NCBI RefSeq assembly: GCF_003426815.1
Contig: NZ_QKYK01000002.1
Span: 372,001 to 436,000 of the forward strand
DNA: 64,000 nt
Direction of reading: 5' to 3'
Origin: Desertimonas flava
Lineage (GTDB): Bacteria > Actinomycetota > Acidimicrobiia > Acidimicrobiales > Ilumatobacteraceae
Shown: in pieces, positions 6,455 to 56,433 of the stretch
How positions within the stretch are numbered: the stretch's first letter is position 1
Layout of the letters: the number at the start of each line of letters is the position of its first letter
The notes under the pieces: generated by a model
Database searches by the model: none
What the model saw: only the letters and a program-made list of their open reading frames with translations
Told to the model about the DNA's origin: nothing
Made by a program: the position numbers and the translations under genes

Positions 6455-8290
6455 ATGGAGGAGACCGCCAGGGACGTGATCGCGGTGGTCGTGGTCGTCG
6501 CTGCGCTGGCATCGCTGGCCCGTCGCAGCGGGCGCACGGCGCCGCTGGTGCTCGTCGCCGGCGGCGTGCTGGCGTCACTGCTGCCGTTCGTCGACGAGGT
6601 CCGGGTGTCGAGCGACCTCGTGCTCATCGGGTTCCTCCCGCCGCTGCTCTACGCCACGGCGATCCGCACCTCGCTGTTCGACGTGCGGGCCAACGTCCGC
6701 CCGATCGCCCTGCTGTCGGTCGGCCTCGTCGTGTTCACGATGTTCGGCGCCGGCCTCGTGGCGTGGTGGGTGTTGCCGATCCCGTTTCCCGCCGCCCTCG
6801 CCCTCGGCGCGGTCGTCGCTCCGCCCGACGCCGTGGCGGCGACGGCGGTCGCCCGCAAGGTGGGCATGCCCCGCCGCGTGGTGACGATCCTCGAGGGGGA
6901 GAGCCTCGTCAACGACGCCACGGCCATCGTGTGCCTGCGCACGTCGGTCGCGGCAATCGGCGGCAGCGTCACTGCGTTCGAGGTCACCCGCGACTTCGCC
7001 CAGTCGGTGCTCGGTGGCGCGGCGGTGGGGCTGGTGGCGGCGATCGTGCTGGCCAAGGTGCGCGGCCACATCGGCGACGCCGTCACCGACACGACCATCT
7101 CGCTGGTCACGCCGTTTGCCGTCTACATCGCCGCCGAGGAGGTGCACGGTTCGGGGGTCCTCGCCGTCGTCATCACCGGCTTGATCCTCGGGCACAAGGC
7201 CGAACGCATCCAGTCGCCGACGTCGCGCATGGTCGAGCGGGGCAACTGGTCGACCGTGCAGTTCATCCTCGAGAACACGGTCTTCTTCCTCGTCGGCCTG
7301 GAGGCCCGCACGATCGTGCGCGATCTCGGCGAGAACACCCTGTCGGGCGCCCGTGTCGCCGGCGCCGCGCTGGCCGTCCTCGGCGCGGTGATCGTGCTCC
7401 GTCTGATCTGGGTGCGGGCGATGACGCCGGCGACGTCGTGGCGGGTGTCGACGCTGGTGGGGTGGGCGGGCATGCGCGGCGTGGTCACGCTCGCCGCCGT
7501 GCTGGTGATCCCCACGGAGACACCGCACCGCGAGGTGCTCATCCTCATCGCCTGGACGGTGGCCGCCGGCACGCTGTTCGTCCAGGGGTCCACCCTGCCG
7601 TGGCTCGTGCGGCGCCTGGGCGTCCGTGGCCCCGATCCGGCCGCCGACGCCCTCGCCGAAGCGCGTTTGCTGCAGACGGCGGCCGCGGCGGGGGTGCGGG
7701 CGCTCGACGACGTGCTCACCGGTGACGAGCCGCCGGCCGTGGTGGATCGTCTCCGTCGGCGCGGCTTCGAGCGGGCCGACGCCCGGTGGGAGCGCTTCGG
7801 TGGCGGAGGCGAGACGCCGAGTGCCGTCTTCGCCCGGCTGCGTCGGGTCATGCTCGACGCCGAGCGGGGCGCCGTGCTCGCCGAGCGCGGCGAAGGCACC
7901 GCGCCCGACGAGGTCGTGCGCCGGGTGCTGTCGATCTTCGACGTCGAGGAGTCGATCCTCATCGCCGGCGACCGATGGAACTCCGCCGACCGTGACGACG
8001 ATCTCGTCAACGAATCCGTCGGCGGGGCGTCAGCGTGCGACCACCTCCGCGACGCGGCGACGCTCACCGAGCCGTCGCCGTCGTCGGACCACTGCGAGGC
8101 CTGTGTGCGCGAGGGCACGGTGACCGTGCACCTGCGCATGTGTCTCACCTGCGGCAACGTGGCCTGCTGCGACTCGTCGCCGGCGCGGCACGCCGACCGG
8201 CACTTCCGCGGCACCGGCCATCCGGTGATGCGCAGCGTCGAGCCCGGCGAAGCCTGGCGCTGGTGCTACCTCGACAACACGCTGGGATAG
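6455..8290 (+). CDS. CPA1-type Na+/H+ antiporter with C-terminal UBP zinc finger
   Basis: Membrane cation/proton exchanger of 611 residues. Residues 1-~405 hold 11-12 hydrophobic helices with the CPA1 motifs ALGAVVAPPDAVAATAV (the acidic PPDA pair that binds the cation) and EGESLVNDATAIV. A cytoplasmic helical region follows, and residues ~525-611 form a zf-UBP ubiquitin-protease-type zinc finger: CDHL, CEAC, CLTCGNVACC, RHADRHFRGTGHPV, ending in WRWCYLD. Bacterial antiporters carrying this finger are known from actinobacteria, but the finger's ligand is not established. Homeostasis of Na+ and pH is inferred. The gene stands alone, with a hairpin downstream at 8345. Confidence 0.92.
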   Translation: MEETARDVIAVVVVVAALASLARRSGRTAPLVLVAGGVLASLLPFVDEVRVSSDLVLIGFLPPLLYATAIRTSLFDVRANVRPIALLSVGLVVFTMFGAGLVAWWVLPIPFPAALALGAVVAPPDAVAATAVARKVGMPRRVVTILEGESLVNDATAIVCLRTSVAAIGGSVTAFEVTRDFAQSVLGGAAVGLVAAIVLAKVRGHIGDAVTDTTISLVTPFAVYIAAEEVHGSGVLAVVITGLILGHKAERIQSPTSRMVERGNWSTVQFILENTVFFLVGLEARTIVRDLGENTLSGARVAGAALAVLGAVIVLRLIWVRAMTPATSWRVSTLVGWAGMRGVVTLAAVLVIPTETPHREVLILIAWTVAAGTLFVQGSTLPWLVRRLGVRGPDPAADALAEARLLQTAAAAGVRALDDVLTGDEPPAVVDRLRRRGFERADARWERFGGGGETPSAVFARLRRVMLDAERGAVLAERGEGTAPDEVVRRVLSIFDVEESILIAGDRWNSADRDDDLVNESVGGASACDHLRDAATLTEPSPSSDHCEACVREGTVTVHLRMCLTCGNVACCDSSPARHADRHFRGTGHPVMRSVEPGEAWRWCYLDNTLG

Positions 8291-8344
8291 CTCGCGCCGA
8301 ACCGGTCGCGAGACGATCAACGCGCGGACGCCGAAGGGGGAGGC

Positions 8345-8367
8345 TCGGAGGGGGATTCCCCCTCCGA
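8345..8367. terminator. hairpin between convergent antiporter and thiolase genes
   Basis: TCGGAGGGGGA and its complement abut with almost no loop. No T-tract. Placement between convergent genes suggests a shared terminator; the following 100 nt are low-complexity GAGCGCAGCGAGC-type sequence. Confidence 0.45.
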
Positions 8368-8491
8368 TGCGGCGATCAGCGCAGCTTGCTGCGCCGCCGC
8401 CTCTTTCGATTCTTCGTGCGAGCGCAGCGAGCTCAAAGCAAACTCGCCGCAGCGGAGCGAGCGCAGCGAGCGATGCGGAGCGAGGACGAAA

Positions 8492-9715
8492 CTATGCGGC
8501 GGCTTCCAGGATGTGGACGCCGCAGGCGGAGCCGAGGCCGATGACGTGGGCCAGGCCGACCTTGGCGCCTTCGATCTGGCGGTCGCCGGCCTCGCCGCGG
8601 AGGTGATGGCACACCTCCCAGATGTTGGCGATGCCGGTGGCGGCGATCGGATGACCCTTCGACTGCAGGCCGCCCGACACGTTGACCGGCGTCGTGCCGT
8701 CGCGCCACGTGGCGCCGGAGTTGAAGAACTCGGCGGCGCCGCCGGGCTCGCAGAGGCCGAGGTTGTCGTAGTGCACCAGCTCGGCCGTGGCGAAGCAGTC
8801 GTGCAGCTCGACGAGGTCGAGGTCCTCCGGGCCGACGCCTGCGAGCTCGTAGGCCTGCTTGGCGGCGTTGCGGGTGAGCGTGTTGACGTTGGGCAGCACC
8901 TGGCAGCCGAGGTCGTAGGGATCGCTGGTGAGGATCGACGCCGACACCTTGATCGCCCGCTTCTGCTGCTCCTTGGACAGAGACTTGAGCCGCTCGCCCG
9001 ACGTCACCACCGCGGCGGCCGCGCCGTCGCAGTTCGCCGAGCACATCGGCCGGGTGTTCGGGTAGGCGATCATGACGTCGTTCTTGATCTCGTCGAGCGT
9101 GAAGCGCTTCGAGTAGGCGGCCAGCGGGTTCAGCGTGGAGTGGGCGTGGTTCTTCTCGCTGATGCGGGCGAACAGGTCGAAGTCGGCACGCGATGATGGA
9201 GAGTCGTAGCGGCGGGCGTACTCCATGCCGATCTGGGCGAAGACGCCGGGCATCGTGTCGGTGCCGATCCGCCCGTCCACCGGGGCGACGGCGCCGAAGC
9301 GGCCCTTGGGCTCCCACGTGTTGCTGTCCTTCTTCGCCTGGCCGCCGCCACCGAGGAGGCCTGCGCCGGCCAGCTTCTCGACGCCGAACGCCAGACCGAA
9401 CTCGGCCTCGCCGGACTTCACGCCCATGATCGCCGTACGCAGCGCGGTGGCGCCGGTGGCGCAGGCGTTGGCCACGTTGTACACGGGGATGCCGGTCTGG
9501 CCGACCTGCTTCTGCACCTGCTGGCCGACACCGGCCGACGCGTTCATCAGGCTTCCCGCGCCGATGATGCCGATGTCGGCCATCGTGACGCCGGCGTCGG
9601 CCAGGGCGCCCTGCACGGCCTCGCTGGCGAGGTCGACGACGTCACGATCGGCGTGCTTGCCGAACTTCGTCATCGTGATGCCGAGGATCCAGATGTCGTC
9701 TGCGTTGCCAGCCAT
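8492..9715 (-). CDS. thiolase-like acyl-CoA acetyltransferase (SCP2/lipid-transfer type)
   Basis: A 407-residue thiolase-fold enzyme that should cleave or condense acyl-CoA thioesters, most like the SCP-x/Ltp group used in sterol and branched-chain side-chain breakdown. The nucleophile is in NACATGA (Cys ~84) and the catalytic His region reads GGLQSKGHPIAATG (~353). The start at 9715 has GGAG upstream and begins 1 nt after the stop of the DUF35 gene, so the two are cotranscribed. Ltp-type thiolases commonly pair with a DUF35 zinc-ribbon/OB protein that binds the acyl-CoA, which is exactly the neighbour here. The exact substrate is not determinable. Confidence 0.88.
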   Translation of the reverse strand: MAGNADDIWILGITMTKFGKHADRDVVDLASEAVQGALADAGVTMADIGIIGAGSLMNASAGVGQQVQKQVGQTGIPVYNVANACATGATALRTAIMGVKSGEAEFGLAFGVEKLAGAGLLGGGGQAKKDSNTWEPKGRFGAVAPVDGRIGTDTMPGVFAQIGMEYARRYDSPSSRADFDLFARISEKNHAHSTLNPLAAYSKRFTLDEIKNDVMIAYPNTRPMCSANCDGAAAAVVTSGERLKSLSKEQQKRAIKVSASILTSDPYDLGCQVLPNVNTLTRNAAKQAYELAGVGPEDLDLVELHDCFATAELVHYDNLGLCEPGGAAEFFNSGATWRDGTTPVNVSGGLQSKGHPIAATGIANIWEVCHHLRGEAGDRQIEGAKVGLAHVIGLGSACGVHILEAAA

Positions 9716-9716
9716 G

Positions 9717-10151
9717 TCAGTTCGCTCCTGTCGTGGGTTCGAAGCCGAAGCTGATCGCCTCGGTGCCGTTGTCATCGGTGCCGATGGGGAACGTCGTCAG
9801 GCGCACCGGCAGACCGAGCGGCACGTTCTCGGGCGTCGGCTCGACGTTCACGACGTTGCCCCGCACAGGGGTGCCGCCGAGATCGACCACCGCCGAGACG
9901 AACGGCACGGGGATGCCCGGGGCTGCGAAGGCGACGATGGTGTAGGTCTCCACCGTGCCCTCGGTGGGCAGGTCGACCTTGGTGAACTCGGTACCGAAAC
10001 ACTTGGCACAGGCGTTGCGTCGATCGAAGTAGCGGGCTCCACAACCGGTGCACTCGTTGGCGACGAGGTGGGGGGAATCCCCGAGAACGAGGTAGTCGAC
10101 GAGCGGGACCTGGGCCGGGGCCTCGGGAGCTTCGGTGGCCGTATCTGACAT
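9717..10151 (-). CDS. DUF35 zinc-ribbon/OB-fold protein, thiolase partner
   Basis: A 144-residue protein with an N-terminal helix, a rubredoxin-like zinc ribbon (C34, C37, C48, C51: CTGC and CAKC) and a C-terminal OB fold with GIPVPFVSAVVDL. Such proteins form a complex with Ltp-type thiolases and help deliver acyl-CoA. It is the first gene of a two-gene operon with the thiolase. The ATG at 10151 is preferred because a TAGCGT box lies 7 nt upstream, consistent with a leaderless start. Confidence 0.88.
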   Translation of the reverse strand: MSDTATEAPEAPAQVPLVDYLVLGDSPHLVANECTGCGARYFDRRNACAKCFGTEFTKVDLPTEGTVETYTIVAFAAPGIPVPFVSAVVDLGGTPVRGNVVNVEPTPENVPLGLPVRLTTFPIGTDDNGTEAISFGFEPTTGAN

Positions 10152-42286: not shown

Positions 42287-42576
42287 CCCTGGCCGGCGGC
42301 AGGGCGCACTTCCCGAAGCGTGACGCGTGCTCACCGCCATTGGCACGACGGTGTGCGTGCTGGGCGGCATGAGCCGTCATAAGAGGGCGCCGTGGCAGGA
42401 TCGATGGCGGACCCCCGAGCCCACCACGACGCCGTTCGTCGCCATGGCGAAGGCGACGAGAGCTGGCGGATCTGGTCCGCGATGTGTCGATCGCAGGGGG
42501 GCCGATCCAGTGCTCGCTCCGCCGAGGCGGGCACCGAACCGGCCACCTGCTACCGGCGACGAATGCGCCGGACGAC
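42287..42576. other. 290-nt region without a recognisable gene
   Basis: Between folD and the hairpin at 42577. Frames are open on both strands but lack a ribosome binding site, conserved phrases or normal codon bias. Confidence 0.5.
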
Positions 42577-42608
42577 GGGGCTCGGGCTGCCGCCGCAGCC
42601 CGAGCCCC
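42577..42608 (-). terminator. hairpin downstream of the small secreted-protein gene
   Basis: GGGGCTCGGGCTGC / GCAGCCCGAGCCCC, perfect 14-bp stem, 4-nt loop, 12 nt beyond the stop codon on the minus strand. No T-tract. Confidence 0.6.
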
Positions 42609-42620
42609 ATACGACGAAGC

Positions 42621-43217
42621 TCAGAGGGTCTCGGGCAAGACGAACGACGGCGTCTGGCCACCGCCGCCTTCCACTCGCGGCCCGGGTACGCAGAGCGGGC
42701 TCGCGGGAGGATAAGTCACCGACGCCGACGCTTCGGGATTGACCTGGAAGTAGACGGTCAGCGGCGCACGGGCCCAGCTCCACTCGTCCCCTTCGGTCCA
42801 GGAGCCGTCGGAGTTCTGCGTCCAGCCCGGCCAGTCGATCGTGGCGCCCCCCGAGACCACCGCACCCGGCCACAGCACGCGGCCCGAGAGCGGCTGGTTC
42901 GTGTACACGAACTCCTCGCCGCCGGCACCGCGGAAGGTGATGGTGACGGTCGTCGCCGACGTCCCGGTGGCCCTCACCCGATACACGAGATAGGGGGTGT
43001 CGTGCTCACAGAGCGGGGCCACCAACTCGACCGTCAGCGTGGGCTGTGCCACGGTCGTGCACGTGGTGAGGGGGTAGTCGCTGCCGCCGCAGTCGGCCGC
43101 CGGAGCGACGCTGGGCGCCTCGCCACCAAGAGCCGATGCGCCCGCGGGTACAGTCGTGACGACGAACGCGCCGCCGATGAGCAATGTGGTAGCAAGCCGC
43201 GCAATACGCGTCTTCAT
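42621..43217 (-). CDS. small secreted protein, function unknown
   Basis: A 198-residue exported protein. MKTRIARLATTLLIGG with the following VTTVPAGASA is a classic signal peptide. The body is beta-rich with several Cys (DCGG, LTTCTT, PLCEH, SPLCV) and many aromatics (DWPGWTQNSDGSW). The C-terminus reads SFVLPETL and then stops, resembling an LPxT sortase motif without the Gly, hydrophobic helix and basic tail. GGCGG precedes the ATG at 43217 by 7 nt. No family recognised; it borders the exopolysaccharide locus. Confidence 0.75.
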   Translation of the reverse strand: MKTRIARLATTLLIGGAFVVTTVPAGASALGGEAPSVAPAADCGGSDYPLTTCTTVAQPTLTVELVAPLCEHDTPYLVYRVRATGTSATTVTITFRGAGGEEFVYTNQPLSGRVLWPGAVVSGGATIDWPGWTQNSDGSWTEGDEWSWARAPLTVYFQVNPEASASVTYPPASPLCVPGPRVEGGGGQTPSFVLPETL

Positions 43218-43335
43218 GTCAATTCCGCCTTTGTTGTCCGCCGCCCGTCTCCGGGCATGCGATGCATCCTTCCGCAAGGATCCATCAGATTCCCCGCCGC
43301 CGCGGGCCGCCGTTCTCGCGTGAGAACTGAGCGGC

Positions 43336-43343
43336 ACTATAGC
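43336..43343. promoter_or_regulatory. bidirectional -10-like box
   Basis: ACTATAGC reads TATAGC on the plus strand toward the DUF4012 gene and TATAGT on the minus strand toward the small secreted-protein gene. Confidence 0.3.
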
Positions 43344-43357
43344 GGAACGCGCTATGC

Positions 43358-45628
43358 GTGCCAAGCACTAAATGGGCGAAGTGCGACGTGATCCGGGATG
43401 CCGACTCGTATGCTCCGCCGGTGGTCCCGGCGCTCCGCGAACAACCGAGGCGTGCGCCGGCGGTATCGAGGTTCGCACCGTTGCTCGGGTCCTGCGTCGC
43501 CTTGATCGTTCTCGGCCGTGGTCTCTCGCCCACCGGTCAGGCAGGAGTCGACGTGATTCTCGTCGCTGGCGCTGCTGGTGCCGCGGGTGCTCTCGGTTCC
43601 CGAGCCCCCGCATGGACGTTGGTGGTGGCGGCGACCTCGTCAATCGTGATCTCCGGGGCCCTCGTCCCTGCCGTCGTGGCTGGCAGTGCCCTGGTGTTGG
43701 CGTTGGTGCCGCTCTTGACGGCCGTCCCCCTCCGTTCGTGGCTGCTCGCCGCGTCGTGGGGCTGTTGTCTCAACGCGTTGGCGCGTAGTGAGCTGCGGGG
43801 CGTTCTCGGGCTGTCGGCGTTGGTCGCCTGCGGTACGGCTGTCATCGTCGCCGTGGTCGGTCTTCGGGCGTTCTCCCGTCGTGTGCGCAGGGTCGTGTGG
43901 CTGACGTCAGCACTGCTGTGCCTCTCGGTCGTCGCGTCGAGTGCGGCGTTCGGAATCGTCACGCTGCGTTCCCGTCAGGAACTCGTGGACGGCGTGGACG
44001 CGGCCGAGTTCGGAGTCGCCGCCGTGGAGTCGGGCGACTTCGAAGCGGCAGCCATGTGGTTCCAGCGGTCCGCCGACCTCCTGCAGTCGGCGAACGAAGA
44101 GGTCAACTCGATACTGACGTTCCCGGCCCGAGCCGTGCCCGTCGTCGCGCAGCATCGCAATGCTCTGGAGCGCTTGAGCCAGATCGGCGCCGACGGCGCC
44201 TCAGCGGTGGCCGCGGCGCTCGGCGAGGTCGACCTCGACGAGTTGAGGGTGACCGACTCCCGGATCGACCTCGAGGCGCTCGTCGCCCTTCAAGCGCCGC
44301 TCAATCGGGTCCGTGACGAGCTCGTGCAGCTCCGTGAGGAGTCGGTCGGCTCGCGATCGGTGTGGCTCGTCGGCCGGGCAACTGAGGAGCTGGACGAGTT
44401 CGACGACAGCCTCGCCGAGCACCTTCCGTCGCTCGACAACGCGCTGAACGCGATCGAGCTCGCACCCGACATGCTGGGCGCCGCCGGTCCTCGCACCTAT
44501 CTGCTCTTATTCACGACCCCGTCCGAGTCGCGCGGTCTGGGCGGCTTCGTCGGCAGCTACGCCGAGCTCGCTGTGGTTGACGGACGCCTGACGCTCGGTC
44601 CGGCGGGCCGGGCGAGTGATCTCGACACGCTCGTGGAGAACGCCGGGGGCCGCGTCAACGGCTTCGAGGAGTTCCGGGCGCGCTACGGACGGTTCGGCTT
44701 CGACAACGACGGGGCCGGGCTCGTCGGGGATGCGGCATTCCGCAACCTCGCCGTGACGCCCAGCTTTCCGTGGGTCGGCTCGATCGCGGCGGACCTGTAC
44801 GAGCAAGCGACGGGTCAACACATCGACGGAGTGATCGCCGTCGATCCGTTCGTCGTCGCGAGCTTCTTGAACTACACCGGCCCGATCCACCTCGACAGCC
44901 TCGGCGTCGACCTGGACAGCGACAACGCTCTCTGGTTCCTGCTTCGCGACCAGTACATCGTCGGATCCGAGGACAACGAACGACGCACCGATGCGTTGGG
45001 CGAGGCGGCAGCGATCGCGTTCGATCGCATGATGCACGGTCAACTTCCCGATCCGATCGCGTTCGCTCGGGAGATCGGACCGTACGTCGGCGACCGACGA
45101 CTCTTGATGTGGAGCGCACACCCGCGAGAACAGGTCTTGCTCGACCGCCTCGCGGCAGGCGGCGCGATCCCGACGCCGAGTGGCCGCAACGGATGGTCCG
45201 TCACCATCGCCAACGCGGCCGGCAGCAAGATCGACAGCTTTCTGGAACGCAGCGCGTCGTACGAGACCTCGACCGATGCGAGCGGCGTGACGACGTCCAC
45301 GATCAGGCTCGTTCTGACCAACACCGCTCCCAACAGCGGACTTCCGAGGTACATCATCGGCAGTGAGGTCGGCCTGCCGCCCGGGACAACCCGCCTCTAT
45401 GTGTCGTTCTACAGCTCGCTCGATCTTGTTGGCGCCACGCTCGATGGGACCGAGCTCGAGCTGGAGCGGTCGACCGAGCAGGGCTGGAATGTGTACTCCA
45501 CCTTCGTCGAGATTCCGTCTGGGGGGTCGATCGATTTGACTGTGGATCTCATTGGTCAACTGGCCGCTCCGGACGCCATCGTCACCTGGGTCCAGCCCAT
45601 GGCGAACCCGCTCGAGATTCTCGAGTAG
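43358..45628 (+). CDS. DUF4012 membrane protein of the exopolysaccharide locus
   Basis: A 756-residue protein. Residues ~35-215 contain several hydrophobic helices; a mostly helical extracytoplasmic stretch follows, then the DUF4012 domain beginning near LLLFTTPSESRGLGGFVGSYAEL, with DPFVVASFLNYTGPI and a C-terminal beta domain. DUF4012 proteins are recurrent in actinobacterial capsule/EPS loci but have no assigned reaction. Start uncertain: GTG at 43358 (used here) or GTG at 43388. Converges with the flippase gene. Confidence 0.82.
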   Translation: MPSTKWAKCDVIRDADSYAPPVVPALREQPRRAPAVSRFAPLLGSCVALIVLGRGLSPTGQAGVDVILVAGAAGAAGALGSRAPAWTLVVAATSSIVISGALVPAVVAGSALVLALVPLLTAVPLRSWLLAASWGCCLNALARSELRGVLGLSALVACGTAVIVAVVGLRAFSRRVRRVVWLTSALLCLSVVASSAAFGIVTLRSRQELVDGVDAAEFGVAAVESGDFEAAAMWFQRSADLLQSANEEVNSILTFPARAVPVVAQHRNALERLSQIGADGASAVAAALGEVDLDELRVTDSRIDLEALVALQAPLNRVRDELVQLREESVGSRSVWLVGRATEELDEFDDSLAEHLPSLDNALNAIELAPDMLGAAGPRTYLLLFTTPSESRGLGGFVGSYAELAVVDGRLTLGPAGRASDLDTLVENAGGRVNGFEEFRARYGRFGFDNDGAGLVGDAAFRNLAVTPSFPWVGSIAADLYEQATGQHIDGVIAVDPFVVASFLNYTGPIHLDSLGVDLDSDNALWFLLRDQYIVGSEDNERRTDALGEAAAIAFDRMMHGQLPDPIAFAREIGPYVGDRRLLMWSAHPREQVLLDRLAAGGAIPTPSGRNGWSVTIANAAGSKIDSFLERSASYETSTDASGVTTSTIRLVLTNTAPNSGLPRYIIGSEVGLPPGTTRLYVSFYSSLDLVGATLDGTELELERSTEQGWNVYSTFVEIPSGGSIDLTVDLIGQLAAPDAIVTWVQPMANPLEILE

Positions 45629-47167: not shown

Positions 47168-48543
47168 CGCGAGTGCGGGCCCTCCGGTGCGCTACCGACG
47201 AACTCATACGCACGCTCGAATGCGGCCAGGCTGCTCTGGATCTGGGCCGCCGCCCGCTCGCGCAGGGCATGGCGGATTTCCGGAGCCTCGGCGTGGGCGG
47301 CGTGGATGGCGTCGTCGAGCCGCGCCGCCAACCCGTCGTCGCCGACGTTGATCACTCTCATGCCCTCGCCGAACATGTCGGCGAGCCCGAACAGCTTGTC
47401 GTCGTAGTACTTCGACGAGGACAGGGCGACCACGGGAATGCCCTGCGAGAGGGCGAACACCCCGAGGTGGTATGCACTCGTCACGACCACCCGGCAGCCT
47501 GAGACCCGTTCGGCAATCGCTCGTGGGGCGACATACCGACCGAGGGGACGCCGGGCCCCTTTCACTCCGCGGACGATCGGCATCGTCGACCGGCGATCCT
47601 GCGACCGAAACTCCGCGATGAAGATTGGTGACAGGCGCAGCCCGAGATCGCCGGCTGCGGCCCGCACCGACGTCGAGATCGCCTGGCGGGCGCTGGTCGG
47701 GATCGGAGCGTAGGTCGTGTCCCGGATGCACACGCCCAAGTCGTTACCAGGGGTGTCCCGCCGAAGCCCGTACGGAAGCTCGATCGCGTCGTCGCCCGTG
47801 ATCACCACGCGGTCTGCGGGCACTCCCAGTGCCTCGAGGAGCGCTGGGCCGCCGCGGCGCTCGCGCACCGCGATGAGGTTGACGCGTGGCAGCACCTCGG
47901 CTGCTCGGGCGCGGAGGAGGGGATCCTCGAGCGGGCCGATGCCCTGTCCCACCATCACCACCGGCACATCGTGCTCACGTGAATACTCGACGAGATTGAA
48001 TACCCGGTTCGCCTGGGCGGCGTCCGCGTCCGTCACGTACCCGCCGCCGAGAACCACGACCAGCGACGAGTGTCGGGCCGCCGACAAGACGACGTCGGGG
48101 AGCCGTGGGCCCACAGCAGATGCCCCCTGTTCGGCTGGACCCGGTCGTCCGACGATTCGGCGCCACGCTCGAGCAGCCTTTCGAACGGCGCCCTTGTACT
48201 TCTGGCGCACGAATACCTTGGACCGGAGCCATGCCATCACGACCGGACCCACGAAGCGAGGGCCTACGCGCGCTGCGAGACGCTCAGCGACGGTCGGCGT
48301 TCCCCAGGCTTCATCAGCGAAGTGCGTCACCGCCTCGCAGTCAGGGAAGTAGGAGCGCAACAGTGAGGGCGAGTCGGTCATCACGGCGAGCCGTGCAGCC
48401 GGCCAGCGATCGCGCAGCCGGCGAAGAGTCACGTCAAGCATGGCGAGGTCGCCGTTGTTCCGGAGCCAGTACTCGCTGTTCTCCACCAAGATCCGCAACT
48501 CGCAGCCGTCGGAGACGGACCCTGGGCCACCCTTGTTCGCCAT
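47164..48543 (-). CDS. polysaccharide pyruvyl transferase-family protein
   Basis: A 459-residue GT-B-like protein of the PS_pyruv_trans family, which typically transfers pyruvate from PEP to sugar hydroxyls and adds negative charge to EPS. Phrases include ENSEYWLRNNGDLAMLDVTLRRL, LVVLGGGYVTD, VGQGIGPLEDPLLRARA, AVRERRGGPALLEALG, SAYHLGVFALSQGIPVVALS and KYYDDKLFGL. The ATG at 48543 begins the domain; the frame extends to 48600 through a less likely hydrophobic stretch. First gene of a two-gene operon with the flippase, divergent from the chain-length gene. Confidence 0.85.
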   Translation of the reverse strand: MANKGGPGSVSDGCELRILVENSEYWLRNNGDLAMLDVTLRRLRDRWPAARLAVMTDSPSLLRSYFPDCEAVTHFADEAWGTPTVAERLAARVGPRFVGPVVMAWLRSKVFVRQKYKGAVRKAARAWRRIVGRPGPAEQGASAVGPRLPDVVLSAARHSSLVVVLGGGYVTDADAAQANRVFNLVEYSREHDVPVVMVGQGIGPLEDPLLRARAAEVLPRVNLIAVRERRGGPALLEALGVPADRVVITGDDAIELPYGLRRDTPGNDLGVCIRDTTYAPIPTSARQAISTSVRAAAGDLGLRLSPIFIAEFRSQDRRSTMPIVRGVKGARRPLGRYVAPRAIAERVSGCRVVVTSAYHLGVFALSQGIPVVALSSSKYYDDKLFGLADMFGEGMRVINVGDDGLAARLDDAIHAAHAEAPEIRHALRERAAAQIQSSLAAFERAYEFVGSAPEGPHSR

Positions 48544-48678
48544 CGTTCTCGCCATCTGTAGCAGCCACGCGGCCACTCCGGTGGCGATCAGCCTGAGCAC
48601 TGTACATGGTCGTCATCTCAGACCACACCGCGTCGGCCCAGCCCTCCGGCAGTCCAGTACGAAGCGACCCCCGGCGCC

Positions 48679-48684
48679 TATACT
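48679..48684 (+). promoter_or_regulatory. candidate -10 box upstream of the chain-length protein gene
   Basis: TATACT, 50 nt before the GTG at 48735, leaving a ~40-nt leader with GAGAGG 7-8 nt before the start. -35 not clear. Confidence 0.35.
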
Positions 48685-48734
48685 TCGCAACCCGAGAGTC
48701 GCTGATCGTGGGCGAGTCGGCGAGAGGGTGAAGC

Positions 48735-50345
48735 GTGGCACCGACGAAGAAACACTCTGACGGGCTCAAGGTGCGAGCTGTCCGGCTTGTCGTCGAAGTG
48801 CTCGAGGCCGATCCCTCGCTCTCCCTGAACGCAGCAGCAATCCGCGTCGGGGAAAGGCTGCGCGTGAGCCCGACCACATTGCGTGCTTGGTGTCGGCAGG
48901 CGGGTGTCCAAACTACGTCGAGCTCCGGTCAGTCGACCGGAGCGTCTTCGCAAGCCGTGGCCCCGTCGCACCCCGATGTCTACCGCACGTTCGGGCTGCC
49001 GGGCGACTTACCGTCGCAGACTGCGCTTCAGGTCCAGATCTCGCGGATCCGACGCCGTTGGTGGCTCGTCGCGGCCGGCGCCCTCGTCGGAATCGTCGCT
49101 GGCATCGTCTCATGGCAAACCGGCGAGACGCTGTACTCCAGCAAGGCCGCGCTCACCGTGGTCTCCGCCCAGCGCGGACCCGAGCAGGACGCCATCATGA
49201 GCCAGGGATACGTCAGCTACTTCAATGATCCCTCCTACCAGGCGAAGCTGCGTCAGCAGGCGGGAATAGCGGGGGATGTCTCGTTCAAGGCTGAGACCGT
49301 GGTCGCCAGCCCGATCCTCTATGTCATCGCCTCGTCACCGAATGCAGACGATGTGGTGACGGCGGCGTCGAGAATGGCAACGGCACTTCGGGATCAGGTC
49401 AACGACGGAGTACGAGCGAACCGTGAGGCCTCGGTCGCCGCCGTTCTCGATGCGCTCGAGGCGACCGATGGGTTACCTGGCCAAGTGCAGGATCGCATCA
49501 GTGCGATCACGGCCGACAACACGAACGAGCTGCAGGTCGTGCAACTCGAATCGGCCGTGACCTCTACGACACCCGGCCCCATTCGCACCATTGCGTTGCC
49601 GCTCGCTGCTGGTCTGGTGGTCGGGTGCTTCGCAGCGATGGCGTTCGGAGCGGCCTCCCGGCGCCTCGAGTCGGCCTTCGACGTGAGTGACAGAACGGGA
49701 CTCGAAGTGCTCACCGTGCTGCCCCGCATTGATCGTCGCGGCGGCGTGGCGCAGTTCGAACAGCGTGTCGGGCAGCTCGCCAACGTGGTGAGCCGCTTCG
49801 TCCAGCAGCGGCCGATGGTGGTCGCAGTCGCTGGAGCTGGGACGAACAGGGCCGCCTCCTTCGTGGCCCGCGCCTTGGCCGTCCAGCGGGGATCGCACGG
49901 CGAGCGAACCATCCTCGTCGACGCTGAAGGCGCAACGTCTGAAGCAACAGGAGCCAGCGACTACATCGCTGACATCCGGGGAGTCACAGTCCACGACGTC
50001 GCGCAGGATGGACCAGCGGCCAACGTCCTTGTCGTTCCGTGGGGAGAACACGCGGAAGGCCCCCCGGCTGGTGGTGCGGAGCGCTTCGACGACCTGCTCG
50101 GCAAGCTCCGGGCGAACGCAGACGTCGTGATCATCGACTGCCCGCCGATCGTCGATGCCGCGGACGCGCAGGTTCTCTGCGCCGCGGCCGATGTGACCCT
50201 CATCGCGATCGAGGAGTCGGCGACCCGCACGGCGGATGTCGTCAACGGGGTCCGTCTCGTGGAGCACGTCGGCGGGCTCACCCTTGGTGCTGTTCTCATC
50301 GAACGTGGCGGCGTGCCGGAACGCCACCAGTCCGGCGCGGGTTGA
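48735..50345 (+). CDS. Wzz-like chain-length protein with N-terminal transposase-type HTH and degenerate tyrosine-kinase domain
   Basis: A 536-residue protein. Residues ~9-58 resemble the IS3/IS1329 transposase HTH: KVRAVRLVVEVLE, then RVGERLRVSPTTLRAWCRQAG. A Ser/Gln linker follows. Residues ~100-305 are Wzz-like: TM1 ~109-127, an extracytoplasmic region, TM2 ~284-305. Residues ~355-525 form a CpsD/BY-kinase-like domain with ILVDAEG (Walker A') and VVIIDCPP (Walker B), but the Walker A region reads AVAGAGTNRAAS with no lysine, and there is no C-terminal Tyr cluster. It should control polymer chain length; kinase activity is doubtful. GTG start with GAGAGG upstream. Confidence 0.82.
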   Translation: MAPTKKHSDGLKVRAVRLVVEVLEADPSLSLNAAAIRVGERLRVSPTTLRAWCRQAGVQTTSSSGQSTGASSQAVAPSHPDVYRTFGLPGDLPSQTALQVQISRIRRRWWLVAAGALVGIVAGIVSWQTGETLYSSKAALTVVSAQRGPEQDAIMSQGYVSYFNDPSYQAKLRQQAGIAGDVSFKAETVVASPILYVIASSPNADDVVTAASRMATALRDQVNDGVRANREASVAAVLDALEATDGLPGQVQDRISAITADNTNELQVVQLESAVTSTTPGPIRTIALPLAAGLVVGCFAAMAFGAASRRLESAFDVSDRTGLEVLTVLPRIDRRGGVAQFEQRVGQLANVVSRFVQQRPMVVAVAGAGTNRAASFVARALAVQRGSHGERTILVDAEGATSEATGASDYIADIRGVTVHDVAQDGPAANVLVVPWGEHAEGPPAGGAERFDDLLGKLRANADVVIIDCPPIVDAADAQVLCAAADVTLIAIEESATRTADVVNGVRLVEHVGGLTLGAVLIERGGVPERHQSGAG

Positions 50346-50367: not shown

Positions 50368-51867
50368 ATGACTCCATCACTGGTGGGGCGGGGGCTCCTG
50401 CGGGCCCGTCATCGACGGGGGAACCCTTTGGGGGCCGGTCTGGCGCTGCCGATCACTCTGTTCGCCCTGGTCGTCGTTGCGGCCGTCCCGGATTCTGCCC
50501 ACGATCTGCTGCTGTATCTGCCATTGCTGATCGTGGCCTGCGGTGCCGTTGTCGCGGGCTTGGCCGAGCCCAGATTGGCGGTCCTGTACCTCCTGATCGC
50601 GATGTTTTTTCGACTCGCGGTGCCCGACATCCTTCCGGTCGACCCCTTTGTCTTGGCCTATGTCGGAGTACTCCTGTCGGTCTCGATCTGGCTCTCTATT
50701 CGCAGGAACCATCTGCCTCGTCTCGGCATTGTCGAGTCCGCAATGGTCCTGTATCTCGCATGGAACATCTACTCGATGCTGGACACAAACCATGCGCTTG
50801 AGGCTGTCTATCCGCGCACCAACGAAGAACTCTCCGTTTACCGGTTCATCCTGACCGGAACCGCCATTCCACTGTCGATGTACGTCGTTGGTCGGACGTT
50901 CTATCGGCGCCGCGCCGATGTCACGATCGTGCTCTGGGCCCTTCTCGCCTTCGGCGGCTATTCGGCGGCGGTCAGCATCATGCAGTTTCATGGTCCGCAG
51001 GGACTGGTCTGGCCTCGCTACATCGTCGACTCACCGAACTGGGTGGGGCGCGCCAACGGGGTGTTCAACCAGCCCGTCGTCAATGGTCTTGCCCTCACCG
51101 CCGGCTTCCTGGCGGGGTTGTTCCTCGCCGTCCAGCCACGCTCGCGCCGATGGATCACCATGCTCTCCGCCGGCACGTCCGTTGCTGCGGCCTACGGAAT
51201 ATATCTCACCCACACCAGAGCGGTGTGGTTGGCCTTCGTCCTCGTGTGCGTGATCGGTGCGATGTGCTCGGATTCGATGCGGCGAGGTTTCATCGCCGTG
51301 CTTCTGGTGGTTACGGTCGGAGTAGCCGCGACCTGGTCAACCTTCACGAGCGCAGACCGAGATGCCGGGGGAATAGGCTCGGCCAATGAGATCCATGACC
51401 GGCTCAACTCGATTGCTACTTCGCTCTGGGCATTCGAGCGAGAACCGTTCACCGGATGGGGAATCGGCAGGTTCACGGCGATCAACACCGTCCACCACCA
51501 ACAATTTTCGCAGGATGTCAGCTGGGTCCGTGGCTATGGCATAGCGTCGCACTTTAACGAGCTCGGAATTCTTGTTGAGCTCGGCGTCGTGGGGCTGATG
51601 TTGTGGCTCACGGCTATCGTGCTCATCATTGTGCGCCTTACGGAAATGTATCGATCTCAATCGAATGACTTGTTCGTGCGCGAATTTGTGCTTCTCGCTC
51701 TCCTGCTTCTCGGTTCGGTCATTCTGGCGGGTCTGACAGTCGACCTACGCTTCTTCGACTTTCCCGTGGCCGCAACGATGTTGCTCGTCGGAATGGCTCT
51801 GGAGGCGAGCCGCTGCAACGACCTGGGCGAGCGCAGTCGGATCGAGCCGGTGGAAAATCTGTCGTGA
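50368..51867 (+). CDS. O-antigen ligase/polymerase-like membrane protein
   Basis: A 499-residue protein with 10-12 hydrophobic helices and the Wzy/WaaL hallmark: a large extracytoplasmic loop near residues 340-400 with LWAFEREPFTGWGIGRF and SHFNELGILVELGVVG. It probably polymerises repeat units or ligates the polymer. Start ATG at 50368, 22 nt after the chain-length gene. It is noticeably richer in A/T than its neighbours (including a TTTTTT run near 50605), as is usual for variable polymerase genes. Confidence 0.86.
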   Translation: MTPSLVGRGLLRARHRRGNPLGAGLALPITLFALVVVAAVPDSAHDLLLYLPLLIVACGAVVAGLAEPRLAVLYLLIAMFFRLAVPDILPVDPFVLAYVGVLLSVSIWLSIRRNHLPRLGIVESAMVLYLAWNIYSMLDTNHALEAVYPRTNEELSVYRFILTGTAIPLSMYVVGRTFYRRRADVTIVLWALLAFGGYSAAVSIMQFHGPQGLVWPRYIVDSPNWVGRANGVFNQPVVNGLALTAGFLAGLFLAVQPRSRRWITMLSAGTSVAAAYGIYLTHTRAVWLAFVLVCVIGAMCSDSMRRGFIAVLLVVTVGVAATWSTFTSADRDAGGIGSANEIHDRLNSIATSLWAFEREPFTGWGIGRFTAINTVHHQQFSQDVSWVRGYGIASHFNELGILVELGVVGLMLWLTAIVLIIVRLTEMYRSQSNDLFVREFVLLALLLLGSVILAGLTVDLRFFDFPVAATMLLVGMALEASRCNDLGERSRIEPVENLS

Positions 51868-52925
51868 ACACGCGTTGGGTCCTGTGGGTTTCCACCGCAC
51901 TCGAGACCCGAGGTGGTGTTTCAGCGTATGTGCGGATGGTGAGCCAAACATCGCTTTGGTCGTCTTGGAATGTGCGGCACATCGCTACCCACCGCGACGG
52001 CTCGCTCTTCGTCCGCTGCGTCGCATTTGCTCGTGCGCTGCCTCGCTTCCTCTCTGCGCTAGCGGCCCGTCCGAGCCTTGTCCACATTCACATGGCCTCG
52101 GGCGGGAGCTTCTTTCGCAAGAGCGTGCTCATGTGGCTGGCCAGAGTTGTGCATGTGCCTGTCGTCCTCCATATCCACGGAGGTGAGTTCCACCAATTCC
52201 ATGCGCGCCTGCCTCGTCTCATGCGTCGGTACGTGCGTGCGACGCTCGAGGCCTCCTCGCTCGTGATAGCGCTCGGGGAAATCTGGGCGCACCGGCTCGC
52301 ACGCCTAGCGCCGCGTGCTCGTATCGTTGTGCTCCCGAACGCGGTTCGACTGCGGCAACCCGTTTCACAGCCCAAGGTGGGTGAATCCGTCCGCGTCCTC
52401 TTCGTCGGCCGGATCGGAGAAGAAAAAGGTGCGTTCGTCCTTCTCGAGGCATGGGCACAGGTCCTCCGGCAAGGAGTACTCCCGACGCAACTCACGCTTG
52501 CCGGCGACGGTTCGATTGAGCGAGCTCGCCAGCTGGTGGCTGAGCTGGGCCTTGGCGAGTCGGTTCAAGTCCTCGGCTGGGTCGATCCGGGAGACATACC
52601 GCAATTGATGAGCGAGTCTCACGTTCTGGTACTGCCGTCATTGAACGAGGGCCAGCCGATGGCAATCCTGGAAGCGATGGCGCACGGCATGTGCATCGTG
52701 GCGAGCGACAGAGGTGGGATACCTGACCTCATCGACGACGACTGTGGGGTCTTGGTCCCGGCGGGCGATGTCGATGGTCTTGCGACTCCGCTCGCCGCCG
52801 TCGTGAATGATGCGGATCTGCGGGCACGACTCGGTGCTCAAGCGGCCCAGCGAGTCATCGAGCGTTTCGACATCGAAGTGGTCGTTCGTCGGTTGGACGA
52901 CATGTACTCGGAGGTAGCGCGTTGA
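51864..52925 (+). CDS. glycosyltransferase, GT4 family
   Basis: A 353-residue GT-B retaining transferase. N-terminal half: ETRGGVSAYVRMV acceptor-side loop and HIHGGEFHQFHARLP. C-terminal half: VLFVGRIGEEKGAFVLLEAW (GT4 start), LVLPSLNEGQPMAILEAMAHG with the E-x7-E donor-phosphate pair (~258-266). Adds one sugar to the lipid-linked repeat unit at the cytoplasmic face; sugars unknown. GTG start in a 4-nt overlap with the polymerase-like gene; ends in a 4-nt TTGA overlap with the next gene. Confidence 0.9.
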   Translation: MNTRWVLWVSTALETRGGVSAYVRMVSQTSLWSSWNVRHIATHRDGSLFVRCVAFARALPRFLSALAARPSLVHIHMASGGSFFRKSVLMWLARVVHVPVVLHIHGGEFHQFHARLPRLMRRYVRATLEASSLVIALGEIWAHRLARLAPRARIVVLPNAVRLRQPVSQPKVGESVRVLFVGRIGEEKGAFVLLEAWAQVLRQGVLPTQLTLAGDGSIERARQLVAELGLGESVQVLGWVDPGDIPQLMSESHVLVLPSLNEGQPMAILEAMAHGMCIVASDRGGIPDLIDDDCGVLVPAGDVDGLATPLAAVVNDADLRARLGAQAAQRVIERFDIEVVVRRLDDMYSEVAR

Positions 52926-55231
52926 GGCGACGGATACGGCTGACGTACATCGTTCCGGACCTCGATGTCGGCGGAGCCGAACGTCATGTTGTGACGCTGA
53001 TGCCAGCTCTCGACCCGACACGGTTCGATCCGTCTGTCGTCTGCATCGGAGAGGAGGGGGCTCTCTTCGGATCTCTTGCGAAGCATGGCGTCCCGGCCGT
53101 AGCGTTGGGACGTTCCAAGCGGCAGGCGTGGGCTGCGACGCTCGATCTTGTGCGTGAGTTGCATCGGATCGAGCCGGACGTCGTGGTCGTACGCGGCTTC
53201 AACGCCGAGGTGCTCGGACGCATCGCCGCGCGAATCGTGGGAACCCGCGCGATCGTGGTCTGGGTGCACAACTGCGGTGACGTAACAGCGCGCGGCCGGT
53301 TGCGAACGATGCTCGACCGAGTCCTTGATCCGGTCACCACCGCCTACTTCGGAGTCGCCCATGCCCAGACCGACTACATGGTCGACGAACTTGGATATCC
53401 CCCCGACAAGGTTCGCATCATCCACAATGGCGTCGACCCCGGTCTTTTCGAGCCCAGTGATGACCGGCGTGCCGTCGCGGAGCTCGGTATCGGCCCCGAT
53501 GATGCTGTCGTCGGGATCGTCGCCGCCTTTCGGCCGGAAAAGGACCATGCCCTGTTCCTTGAGGCGGCGCGTCGGGTCAGTCATCGTATTCCGTCTGCCA
53601 AGTTCCTGGTCGTCGGCGATGGAGCAACACGGCCTGAACTCGAATCGCTCGCCAACCGCCTCGGCATCGCGGAGCGTGTCGTGTTCACCGGAGTACGGCC
53701 CGACGTCGCCGACGTGATGCGTGCCATGGACGTGTTCGTCCTTTCGTCGTACACCATCGAGTGCTTCCCGATGGCTTTGCTCGAGGCGATGGCGGCGGGG
53801 CGTCCCGCGGTCTGTACCGCAGTCGGCGGCGTTCCGGAGATGATCGAGGAAGGCGTAAACGGATACCTCGTCGCCCCGCGCGACGCGCAACTTCTGGCTG
53901 ATCGAGTCATCGCCGTCCTCACAGAGCCGGGCCTGCGACGGCGCATGGGTGCGGCGGCCCGGTCGCGTGTCGAGTCGGAGTTCAGTCTTTCCGCAAGTGT
54001 TCGGCGCGCCGAGGCGGCGGTCGAGACCGTGCTTGAGGCAGTGTCCTCCAGACGAGACCCTGACGTCCGCCCTCTCCAGCTGGCCGTTGTGCTCGACATG
54101 ACATTTGTCGGCGGTGTCGAGGTTTTCCTCTTGAACTTGTTCAGGCACTTTGATCCGAGCGTCGTACGTCCGCGCCTCATCTGCCTGCGTGAGGCAGGTC
54201 CACTCGCTGCAGACTTCGCAGACGCGGGCTTCGACGTCGAGGTGCTCGGCAGGACCAGCCGGTTCGACGTCAGCACCCTCCCCAAGCTTGTCGCAGCCTT
54301 GCGCCGGGACCGGACAGACGCCGTCCTGGTGACCCACCACCATCGCGCAGCGTTGCTGCTCGGACGACTCGCCGCGCGTATTGCCGGCGTGACCGCCAAC
54401 ATCGTCGCTGCCCACGACATGGACCTCACATCCGTTGGAAAGCGCGTGCTTCCGCGCTGGGCGGCGGCGACGATGCGCATGTCGGACGCCCTGGTCCTCC
54501 TTTCGCCGGCGCAGGGCCACTACCTGCACCGCGAAGAGGGCGTCGGAATCAGCGCCGGTCGCAGCATTCGAGAGGTCGTGATCCCCAATGGCATCGAGCT
54601 TCCACCAGTCCCCACCTCGGCGGACCGCGAACGCGCCCGGTCGATCCTCGGAGTCGCGCCAGGGGAATTTGCCGTCGGTATCGTCGCTCGGCTCAGTCCT
54701 CAGAAGGCCCATCACGTGTTGTTGCAGGCCTTTGCCATCTTGATCGAGACCCATCCCGAGGCCCGTCTCGTCGTGATTGGCGACGGTGAGCGCGGCGGGG
54801 AATTGAAGTTGCTCGCCCAACGGCTCGGAATCGCCGCACGAACGACATTCACCGGCACGCGCCGGGATGCGACGCAATTGCTTGCCGGGCTCGACGTCTC
54901 GTGCCTGTCGTCCGTCCACGAGGGCATGCCGATCGTGGTCATCGAGTCGATGGCAGCGGCCGTACCGGTCGTGGCTACCGACTGCGGATCGCTGAGCGAC
55001 ATGATCGATGACGGCGACAACGGGTTTCTCGTTCCGGTCTCCGAGCCCAACTCCCTCGCCCGACGACTCGCCCAGCTCGCCGACGATCGAGAGCTTTGCC
55101 AGCGACTCGGTGCGAACGGTCGACGTCGCGCCGAGCGTGATTATCAGATTGCTGACGCTGCCCGCGCCTACGAACAGCTCTTGACCGAGCTGTGCGGTAC
55201 GACGTCCGAAACCTCCCGGGAGGTGCCCTGA
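52922..55231 (+). CDS. tandem fusion of two GT4 glycosyltransferases
   Basis: A 769-residue protein with two complete GT4 units. Unit 1 (~1-375): DVGGAERHV, GIVAAFRPEKDHALFLEA, ECFPMALLEAMAAG. Unit 2 (~384-755): FVGGVEVFLLNLF, GIVARLSPQKAHHVLLQA, EGMPIVVIESMAAA. Both E-x7-E pairs are present, so both units may be active and could add two successive sugars. Begins at TTG inside the previous stop (TTGA); no separate ribosome binding site needed. The junction is in frame with regular codon usage, so fusion is not a sequencing artefact on its face. Confidence 0.88.
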   Translation: MRRRIRLTYIVPDLDVGGAERHVVTLMPALDPTRFDPSVVCIGEEGALFGSLAKHGVPAVALGRSKRQAWAATLDLVRELHRIEPDVVVVRGFNAEVLGRIAARIVGTRAIVVWVHNCGDVTARGRLRTMLDRVLDPVTTAYFGVAHAQTDYMVDELGYPPDKVRIIHNGVDPGLFEPSDDRRAVAELGIGPDDAVVGIVAAFRPEKDHALFLEAARRVSHRIPSAKFLVVGDGATRPELESLANRLGIAERVVFTGVRPDVADVMRAMDVFVLSSYTIECFPMALLEAMAAGRPAVCTAVGGVPEMIEEGVNGYLVAPRDAQLLADRVIAVLTEPGLRRRMGAAARSRVESEFSLSASVRRAEAAVETVLEAVSSRRDPDVRPLQLAVVLDMTFVGGVEVFLLNLFRHFDPSVVRPRLICLREAGPLAADFADAGFDVEVLGRTSRFDVSTLPKLVAALRRDRTDAVLVTHHHRAALLLGRLAARIAGVTANIVAAHDMDLTSVGKRVLPRWAAATMRMSDALVLLSPAQGHYLHREEGVGISAGRSIREVVIPNGIELPPVPTSADRERARSILGVAPGEFAVGIVARLSPQKAHHVLLQAFAILIETHPEARLVVIGDGERGGELKLLAQRLGIAARTTFTGTRRDATQLLAGLDVSCLSSVHEGMPIVVIESMAAAVPVVATDCGSLSDMIDDGDNGFLVPVSEPNSLARRLAQLADDRELCQRLGANGRRRAERDYQIADAARAYEQLLTELCGTTSETSREVP

Positions 55232-56433
55232 TGACCCGACACGTGCTCATTCTCGTGGAGAACCTGTCCGTGCCGTTCGACCGCCGGGTCTGGCAGGAGA
55301 GTCTGGCGCTGACGGAGGCCGGCTACGACGTGACCGTGATTTGCCCCGCCGGTGTGAAGCAGGACACCGAGCCCGACGTCGTCATCGACGGGGTGCACAT
55401 CCTGCGCTACCCCCTCCGGCCTGCAGCGGGCGGTCCCGCCGGCTATCTCCGCGAGTATTCGCTCGCCCTGTGGCACAGCATCCGTCTCGCGCGTCGGGTC
55501 CAGCGACGGCGGCCGGTTCACGTGGTGCACGCGTGCAATCCCCCCGATCTGCTGTTCCTCGTCGCGCTCGTTCTGCGGATCCGCGGTGAGACTCGCTTCG
55601 TGTTCGACCATCACGACCTTGTTCCCGAGCTGTTCCAGTCACGATTTGCGCGCGGTGGACGCGTGCTCTATTGGGCAACGCGACTGCTTGAGCGTGTGAC
55701 GTTCTTGGCGGCCACCGGGGTGATCTCCACCAACGAGAGTTATCGAAGCGCGGCGATCACGCGAGGCGGTATGGATCCCGGGCGCGTGCGCGTGGTGCGC
55801 AGTGCCCCCAACCTCGAGAAGTTCGTACCGCTCGAGCCTGATCCCGCTCTGCGGCGGGGAAAGCAACATCTCCTGGCCTACCTCGGAGTCATGGGACCGC
55901 AAGATGGAGTGGATTACGCCCTTCGCGCTCTCGCCCATCTGAAGCGTGATCACGGCCGCCGCGACTTCCATGCCCTGTTCATGGGGGGTGGTGACGCGTT
56001 CGACGACATGGTCGCACTGAGCAAGCGGCTCGAGCTTGACGACGTCGTCGAATTCACGGGACGTGTGCCGGATGAGTTCGTTCAACGGTGCCTGTCGACC
56101 GCAGATGTTTGTCTGTCGCCGGACCCGCTGAATCCATTGAACGACGTGTCGACGATGAACAAGGTGGTCGAGTACATGGCAATGGGTCGACCGCTCGTCT
56201 CCTTCGACCTGGTCGAGGCTCGGGTGTCAGCGGGCGAGGCTGCGCTGTACGTGCCAGCCAACGACGAGGCTGCGTTCGCCGCGGCCGTGAACGAACTTCT
56301 GGACGACCCGCGGCGTCGCAAGGAGATGGGTCGACTCGGCCGGCAGCGGGTGGAGCAAGAGCTCTCCTGGTCGACCTCGCGCCGCAACCTGCTGGAGTTC
56401 TACGCTCAGGTGTTTGCCGGCATCTCCGGCTGA
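55231..56433 (+). CDS. glycosyltransferase, GT4 family
   Basis: A 400-residue GT-B transferase. ILVENLSVPFDRRVWQES is the N-terminal motif shared by WbuB/capsule GT4 enzymes, then FDHHDLVPELFQSRF, GVMGPQDGVDYALRAL and LSPDPLNPLNDVSTMNKVVEYMAMG, with the donor-binding acidic residue in the last. ATG at 55231 overlaps the previous stop by one base. Last of the plus-strand run beginning at 48735. Confidence 0.9.
   Translation: MTRHVLILVENLSVPFDRRVWQESLALTEAGYDVTVICPAGVKQDTEPDVVIDGVHILRYPLRPAAGGPAGYLREYSLALWHSIRLARRVQRRRPVHVVHACNPPDLLFLVALVLRIRGETRFVFDHHDLVPELFQSRFARGGRVLYWATRLLERVTFLAATGVISTNESYRSAAITRGGMDPGRVRVVRSAPNLEKFVPLEPDPALRRGKQHLLAYLGVMGPQDGVDYALRALAHLKRDHGRRDFHALFMGGGDAFDDMVALSKRLELDDVVEFTGRVPDEFVQRCLSTADVCLSPDPLNPLNDVSTMNKVVEYMAMGRPLVSFDLVEARVSAGEAALYVPANDEAAFAAAVNELLDDPRRRKEMGRLGRQRVEQELSWSTSRRNLLEFYAQVFAGISG

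Follow-up and report, generated by a model that had tools for sequence, protein, structure and literature searches.

How does a DNA-binding domain of the transposase type come to stand at the head of a membrane protein in a polysaccharide locus, and might it still act on DNA there? This question is raised by a gene in the 64,000-nucleotide stretch of Desertimonas flava DNA analyzed here (hereafter, the window). As originally predicted, the gene occupies positions 48735 to 50345 of the forward strand, with a GTG start codon at 48735 and a stop codon at 50345, and encodes a protein of 536 amino acids. Its place in a Wzx/Wzy polysaccharide locus is that of the co-polymerase. On its upstream side, genes for a Wzx-type flippase (PF13440; 45638-47167) and for a polysaccharide pyruvyl transferase (PF04230; 47164-48600) lie on the reverse strand, the latter being divergently oriented. 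Directly 3' of it, on the forward strand, is a gene of the Wzy/O-antigen-ligase type (PF04932; 50236-51867), whose listed start overlaps the fusion gene and whose real start may be later, and this is followed on the same strand by three glycosyltransferase genes (51864-52925, 52922-55231, and 55192-56433). Next to the polysaccharide locus, a putative frame of 354 amino acids (42327-43391) adjoins a DUF4012 gene; it has no Pfam match at an E-value of 0.001.

The N-terminal domain and its boundaries

Judged by sequence identity, profile comparison, and AlphaFold2 modeling, residues 1-58 of the protein (48735-48908, forward strand) are the three-helix H+HTH DNA-binding domain of IS3-family OrfA, and they begin at the position at which OrfA itself starts. 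Codons 1-58 share 43-53% identity with 16 actinobacterial OrfA pieces, one of which (L065) is a broken piece. OrfAs from genomes of the same class match residues 3-72, the best single sequence (G141) with an E-value of 2.3e-15, and a scan of GTDB with the HTH gave, among its best matches, 50% identity over 64 residues. A profile of 25 domains, the window's sequence among them, matches IS629 OrfA (PDB 2rn7) at an E-value of 1.7e-16. The same structure is named by Foldseek, at 29% identity and with a probability of 1.00, though at E-values no better than 0.011 and 0.036. These comparisons bear out the original prediction of an IS3-type transposase HTH at the N-terminus. When the N-terminus is searched alone, HTH profiles match it, though Pfam's own HTH_Tnp_1 stays just below its cut-off of 24.1 bits with the 67-residue query (22.6 bits, E-value 1.3e-4) and is weaker within the whole protein (17.8 bits, E-value 0.0039). 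Structure prediction agrees: AlphaFold2, supplied with an alignment of OrfA rows for the head, folds residues 9-25, 31-42, and 46-55 (or 56) into three helices, with pLDDT values of about 93-98 for residues 11-60 in the full-length model and of 85-92 when the head is modeled alone. Helix 3 retains T48, L49, R50, and W52, and residues 1-58 contain 10 K/R compared with 5 D/E.

The fusion protein shares the N-terminal three-helix H+HTH, and its starting place, with the OrfA proteins of IS629 (2rn7), IS2, and IS911. For IS2, the three-helix bundle is described as the DNA-binding domain and the zipper-like stretch after it as the part that oligomerizes (PMC3219604). In the fusion protein, similarity to OrfA fades at residue 58, directly past helix 3. 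Since the segment following the HTH is also well conserved in IS elements, yet unrecognizable here, the breakpoint lies at a domain edge. As read from the DNA, a linker of about 36 residues (codons 59-94; 48909-49016, forward strand), rich in Ser, Thr, Gln, and Ala and of low pLDDT over most of its length, joins the head in frame to a co-polymerase (PCP)-like membrane protein.

This junction to a membrane protein sets the fusion protein apart from the IS3-family OrfAs, as does the lack of a recognized zipper, OrfB, catalytic domain, or terminal repeats. No OrfA zipper was recognized after the HTH in the 536-residue frame, and no OrfB with a DDE domain was found after the head, where the PCP part continues the frame and the Wzy-type gene comes next. 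With a left-end profile built from 13 distinct IS ends (left ends only), the best score for a terminal inverted repeat in 48541-48734 was -9.3, and 0.57 such sites are expected by chance. Local alignments of IS left ends to the intergenic gap stayed within the range of shuffled sequences for all 10 IS elements tested, a scan of the gap for IS-end-like sites gave none above chance, and a search with the IS-end consensus returned 7 matches in the window compared with 15.4 expected. This lack of any other recognized IS remnant speaks mildly for the age of the fusion.

Three bases upstream of the GTG codon at 48735, we noted by eye a Shine-Dalgarno-like stretch, GAGAGGGTGA (48722-48731, forward strand). 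It is similar to the sequences that lead into orfA in the IS group; a fraction of 0.0017 of the window positions score equally high (best of 7 offsets), and convergence explains the likeness as well. With the Shine-Dalgarno stretch removed, the leader profile does not stand out: a fraction of 0.019 of the positions score as high, again with the best of 7 offsets. The gap itself had been suggested as a divergent promoter region on which the head might act, but nothing in it stood out above chance. It had been placed at 48544-48734; since the divergent pyruvyl-transferase gene starts at 48600, we correct it to 48601-48734. A strict scan of 48540-49100 gave no promoter-like matches, with shuffled sequences giving 0.0 as well. 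An inverted repeat (48663-48703) around a TATACT motif seen by eye (48679-48684) was considered as an operator and discarded, because an equal or better arm match occurs in 137 of 400 pieces of 134 bases drawn at random from the window.

The window's own genome holds no other close OrfA (next best E-value 0.14). Its sole other clear OrfA is of a distant type, so that no cognate IS element offers itself as an obvious target of the head. In that IS3-type OrfA locus (L026, 1429-3027), no OrfB frame is seen beside the gene, and a frame on the opposite strand, a few bases past it, resembles what we take to be an IS110-type transposase.

A Wzc-like co-polymerase with a degenerate kinase domain

The membrane and extracytoplasmic part of the protein comprises codons 95-306 (49017-49652, forward strand). 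Hydropathy places membrane helices at residues 109-127 and 286-304, and AlphaFold2 models helices at 95-128 and 288-315. Foldseek matches to Wzc and KpsE are weak; Wzc (7nib) ranks first with an E-value of 1.1e-3 and a probability of 0.84. The full-length model is poor, with a mean pLDDT of 58.5 and values mostly below 60 in the kinase-like part. The original prediction that the HTH heads a chain-length determinant holds insofar as the protein is PCP-like and has two membrane helices; the Pfam Wzz family (PF02706) matches it only below cut-off (15.2 compared with 25.5 bits). The assignment as a PCP therefore rests on matches to NCBIfam tyrosine-kinase families, fold, topology, and context. Since the fold search ranks Wzc first though the Wzz match is under cut-off, we regard the body as probably a Wzc-like PCP (PCP-2a type) with a pseudokinase domain, and not as a member. 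The two membrane helices, together with a positively charged run, RIRRRWW, that precedes the first of them, support the proposed cytoplasmic N-terminus, so that the HTH should face the cytoplasm.

Codons 336-536 (49740-50342, forward strand) encode a degenerate BY-kinase domain. NCBIfam tyrosine-kinase families match it with a best E-value of 9.5e-11, far under their curated cut-offs. In line with what had been read from the sequence, its P-loop, AGAGTNRAAS, lacks the Walker A lysine and the C-terminal Tyr cluster is absent, there being no Tyr in the last 60 residues. Both remaining motifs had been considered kept. This is true of Walker B (VVIIDCPP), which is intact, and only partly so of Walker A', whose last residue is Glu, the corresponding residue being Asp in 53 of 58 relatives and Asn in the other 5. 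These relatives are PCP-like frames from the window's genome, its family, and its order that we aligned as best matches and not as a census, after removal of three duplicates (L157, L158, and L163) and of L186, which has X at the motifs. The Walker A lysine is missing from 12 of the 58 as well (L142, L143, L146, L151, L155, L178-L182, L184, and L185), 9 of which also have no Tyr in their last 60 residues, a trait found in 18 of the 58 overall. The broken P-loop is thus not the special feature that it had seemed to be. Single-chain PCPs with BY pseudokinases, such as SMc01795 of Sinorhizobium meliloti, are described along with the stand-alone EcpK of Myxococcus xanthus in PMC12004946, and with 12 of 58 relatives devoid of the lysine, a degenerate kinase domain is ordinary. 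The present data add to the evidence that co-polymerases of this kind are common.

Wzc-type PCP-2a proteins with a BY-kinase resemble the fusion protein in their two membrane helices, in an extracytoplasmic part (its side inferred here), in a C-terminal kinase-like domain, and in their Wzx/Wzy-type locus; they differ in that the fusion protein has lost the Walker A lysine and the Tyr tail, has gained an N-terminal HTH, and matches Wzz under the cut-off. With the BY pseudokinase PCPs (EcpK/EpsV and SMc01795), it shares a kinase-like domain that has neither catalytic motifs nor a Tyr tail and is joined to, or works with, a PCP. EcpK, in contrast, is a separate protein, and the excerpts of the report on it mention no HTH (PMC12004946). 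Two PCP pseudokinases from the same order (L143, identical to L157, and L146, identical to L158) likewise have lost Walker A, show a shortened stretch past Walker A', and contain no Tyr among their final 60 residues; in L157, a Wzy-like gene follows. Unlike the fusion protein, to which they are 25% and 28% identical, they possess a short, ordinary N-terminus without an HTH, and in their open frames the first of the membrane helices lies at residue 40 and residue 15, respectively.

In both loci, the pseudokinase PCPs adjoin sulfate-activation-like genes (L157: 4904-6511, reverse strand, and 6827-9726, forward strand; L158: 5383-6903, forward strand, and 2463-5223, reverse strand), which to us read like CysD, CysN, and CysC. 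These neighborhoods hint at sulfated polysaccharides made with pseudokinase co-polymerases. The window's genome contains two more PCP-like matches, G000:C72:136661-137725 and G000:C17:57801-58736, which lie in frames of 565 and 559 amino acids, respectively; the former (L035) retains its kinase motifs and the tyrosines of its tail and is devoid of an HTH.

Distribution of the fusion

We consider the fusion itself very probable, and the same combination was sought in related genomes, as had been suggested. Searches with the HTH or with residues 1-142 gave matches in 11 of 395 genomes of the class, 7 of 221 of the family, and 7 of 396 of the phylum, sets that overlap, are not additive, and count the window's own genome each time. 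Among these genomes, the fusion was found only in the window's own; no other match that we read was a fusion. All 16 places reported by the class search outside the window's genome are OrfA pieces, and three of them (L018, L023, and L025) contain an internal stop. The family search returned seven weak places, in six other genomes, that are fusion-like by their coordinates. One reads as an OrfA (L037), one as a PCP without an HTH (L038, the same gene as L185), and the others as an unrelated enzyme frame (L040), a Ser/Thr kinase frame (L041), and a frame without recognizable domains (L043); for L039 and L042, a repeated search gave no sensible match. Among the places from the phylum search, four read as OrfAs (L044-L046 and L048), and for L047 a second search produced nothing sensible.

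When the whole protein was searched against GTDB contigs, in a scan that may omit the window's own genome, no match was obtained. When the HTH alignment was used, the best 80 of 83 relatives were all OrfA frames, complete or broken, and free of membrane segments: between the match and the first stop after it, their highest 19-residue hydropathy is 0.96. Plasmid and phage records contained no HTH match at an E-value of 1e-5, and the single match in IMG/VR (L190) is an OrfA. In one of the genomes carrying such elements (G062), an IS copy (L008; 430-1746, reverse strand) reads OrfA and OrfB as a single frame of 438 amino acids, while other copies have the two in separate frames (L010) or show an OrfA frame of 124 amino acids (L011).

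Viewed from the side of the co-polymerase, the HTH is absent from the 58 PCP relatives, three of which (L136, L156, and L172) run off the fetched DNA so that their true N-termini are possibly cut; the best blastp match (E-value 0.22) is to an internal stretch of L134. None of 100 listed PCP relatives bears the same genus label, and no close sister is at hand for comparison. That orthologues might lack the segment had been named as an argument against the fusion. It applies in part, as no relative that we read carries the HTH; this limits the fusion to the present lineage and does not make it unreal. In the open-licence literature, no HTH or transposase domain on a co-polymerase or chain-length determinant appeared among the matches listed, and no such system was found under domesticated or captured bacterial transposase DNA-binding domains among the best 15 of 152 and the best 12 of 23 matches. 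The protein is thus a real and surprising fusion, new in what was searched, present in one genome, and built on a known kind of protein, with a putative function that is unproven.

Retention and possible roles of the head

Has the head been kept for a purpose? Over codons 9-57, it shares 47-57% of its amino acids and 31-47% of its third codon positions with 19 IS OrfAs. Against a profile of 17 OrfAs, it scores 71.3 bits, compared with 47.3-89.3 bits for 16 OrfAs that had no part in the profile. When neutral decay was simulated from three OrfAs, the head's score was reached in 111 of 600 runs at 80% nucleotide identity, in 1 of 600 at 75%, and in none of 600 at either 70% or 58%, the last being near the real nucleotide identity. 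Free decay since a donor of the sampled type can therefore not have gone far. Three of the six OrfA positions that are at least 90% conserved (alignment A3) are changed in the head (Y7H, E10G, and G43R). Among the pairs of IS OrfAs, 63 of 171 have a third-position identity below 60%, and we looked at the 30 most saturated of them. In ten pairs, the third positions are at most 47% identical; nine of the ten retain 39-63% of their amino acids, like the head, and one retains 78%. All nine involve the outlying OrfAs L068 or L069, whereas core-group pairs at 47-55% third-position identity (among those listed) keep 67-78% of their amino acids, more than the head does. The head, as these sequence comparisons suggest, may be somewhat relaxed or may derive from an outlying OrfA lineage. 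The constraint spans the whole path since the donor IS element, and host selection and a recent capture from an unsampled OrfA both fit it. Domestication of the HTH is plausible, with no second species to set beside this one.

For the origin of the protein, we propose that the front of a PCP serving the surrounding Wzx/Wzy locus was replaced or extended in frame by a piece of an IS3-family orfA that contributed the start, the whole H+HTH, and nothing else recognizable. The PCP part would oligomerize and, as a scaffold for the polymerase, determine chain length with no need for tyrosine phosphorylation, in the way proposed for EcpK as a phosphorylation-independent scaffold; Wzc is stated to form octamers (PMC12004946). 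If the PCP part oligomerizes like Wzc, the oligomer would stand in for the lost zipper of OrfA. Several HTHs on flexible linkers would then be displayed at the cytoplasmic face, within reach of DNA, and assembly could tether or regulate DNA, possibly that of its own locus. The whole chain, that is, a Wzc-like pseudokinase PCP with a captured OrfA head that kept its DNA-binding role, is a reading that we hold tentatively; DNA binding and any regulation are a guess, made with slightly more reserve. That a recruited array of transposase HTHs at the membrane lets the assembly of the polymer machine directly control or anchor DNA of its own locus is unlikely. Against a DNA-binding role stands that the HTH is without its own dimerization part, that the scans of the upstream gap gave no operator, promoter, or IS-end-like site, and that the oligomer of this divergent PCP is a predicted one; against a role that was kept stands the presence of the fusion in one genome, with no second species showing retention.

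The membrane-tethered one-component regulators CadC and ToxR combine a cytoplasmic OmpR-type winged HTH head with an outside sensor domain. They resemble the present protein in that a DNA-binding-type head (on the side that we infer to be cytoplasmic here) is attached to a membrane protein that also has an outside domain; they differ in that the outside domain is a sensor there and a co-polymerase here, and in that their head is an OmpR-type winged HTH. InsA of IS2 is a repressor.

About as likely as a DNA-binding head is a passenger domain, and we consider this quite possible: after the insertion of an IS3 element at the 5' end of the PCP gene, deletions spared its start and HTH, which stayed in frame as a tolerated extension that has no role at DNA and leaves the PCP normal. 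The occurrence in a single genome, an upstream region in which no regulatory sites were found, the three altered near-invariant positions, and a Shine-Dalgarno stretch and start that could simply serve translation all agree with this; set against it are an HTH that scores like those of live OrfAs despite a nucleotide identity of 0.55-0.60 to 15 of the 16 OrfAs compared (0.51 to the broken one), a head that ends at a domain edge, the age for which the lack of other recognized IS remnants speaks, and the recent capture from an unsampled donor that it requires. Because of the changed near-invariant positions and the higher identity kept by the core IS pairs, we slightly lowered our confidence in the whole chain with a kept DNA-binding role and raised that in a tolerated extension by the same amount.

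HTH bundles can be reused for protein contacts, and the protein that carries this one belongs to an oligomeric class. The head might hence have been kept as a protein-protein or assembly module, contacting for instance neighboring subunits or the pseudokinase part, in place of binding DNA. Such a role is improbable given that the helix-3 residues and the excess of positive charge are retained and that none of the present findings points to a protein partner.

It is very improbable that translation begins downstream and that codons 1-58 are an untranslated IS remnant. In-frame GTG or TTG codons before the first membrane helix are indeed available at codons 13, 22, 44, 49, and 75; the first four fall within the HTH, and by eye the last has no Shine-Dalgarno-like stretch nearby, in contrast to the GTG codon at 48735, from which we infer that translation starts. 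Codons 1-57 keep the pattern in their codon-position G+C content (0.72/0.53/0.70), and in the simulated decay to 58% identity 199 of 600 sequences stayed free of stops although none reached the observed score. Least probable of all is that an IS piece and the PCP gene were brought together by an artefact of assembly or binning: the genome is a draft of 73 contigs and IS elements are usual sites of misjoins, but the foreign piece is about 174 bases long and in frame, the sequences on its two sides are parts of a single polysaccharide locus, and no other close copy of the OrfA is present in the genome.

The fusion protein represents a clean bacterial case in which a host gene gained a transposase DNA-binding domain cut at its domain boundary. 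We know of no chain-length co-polymerases, as a protein class, that touch DNA. If the head of this protein binds DNA, the state of polysaccharide assembly would be wired straight to DNA, with no separate regulator in between.
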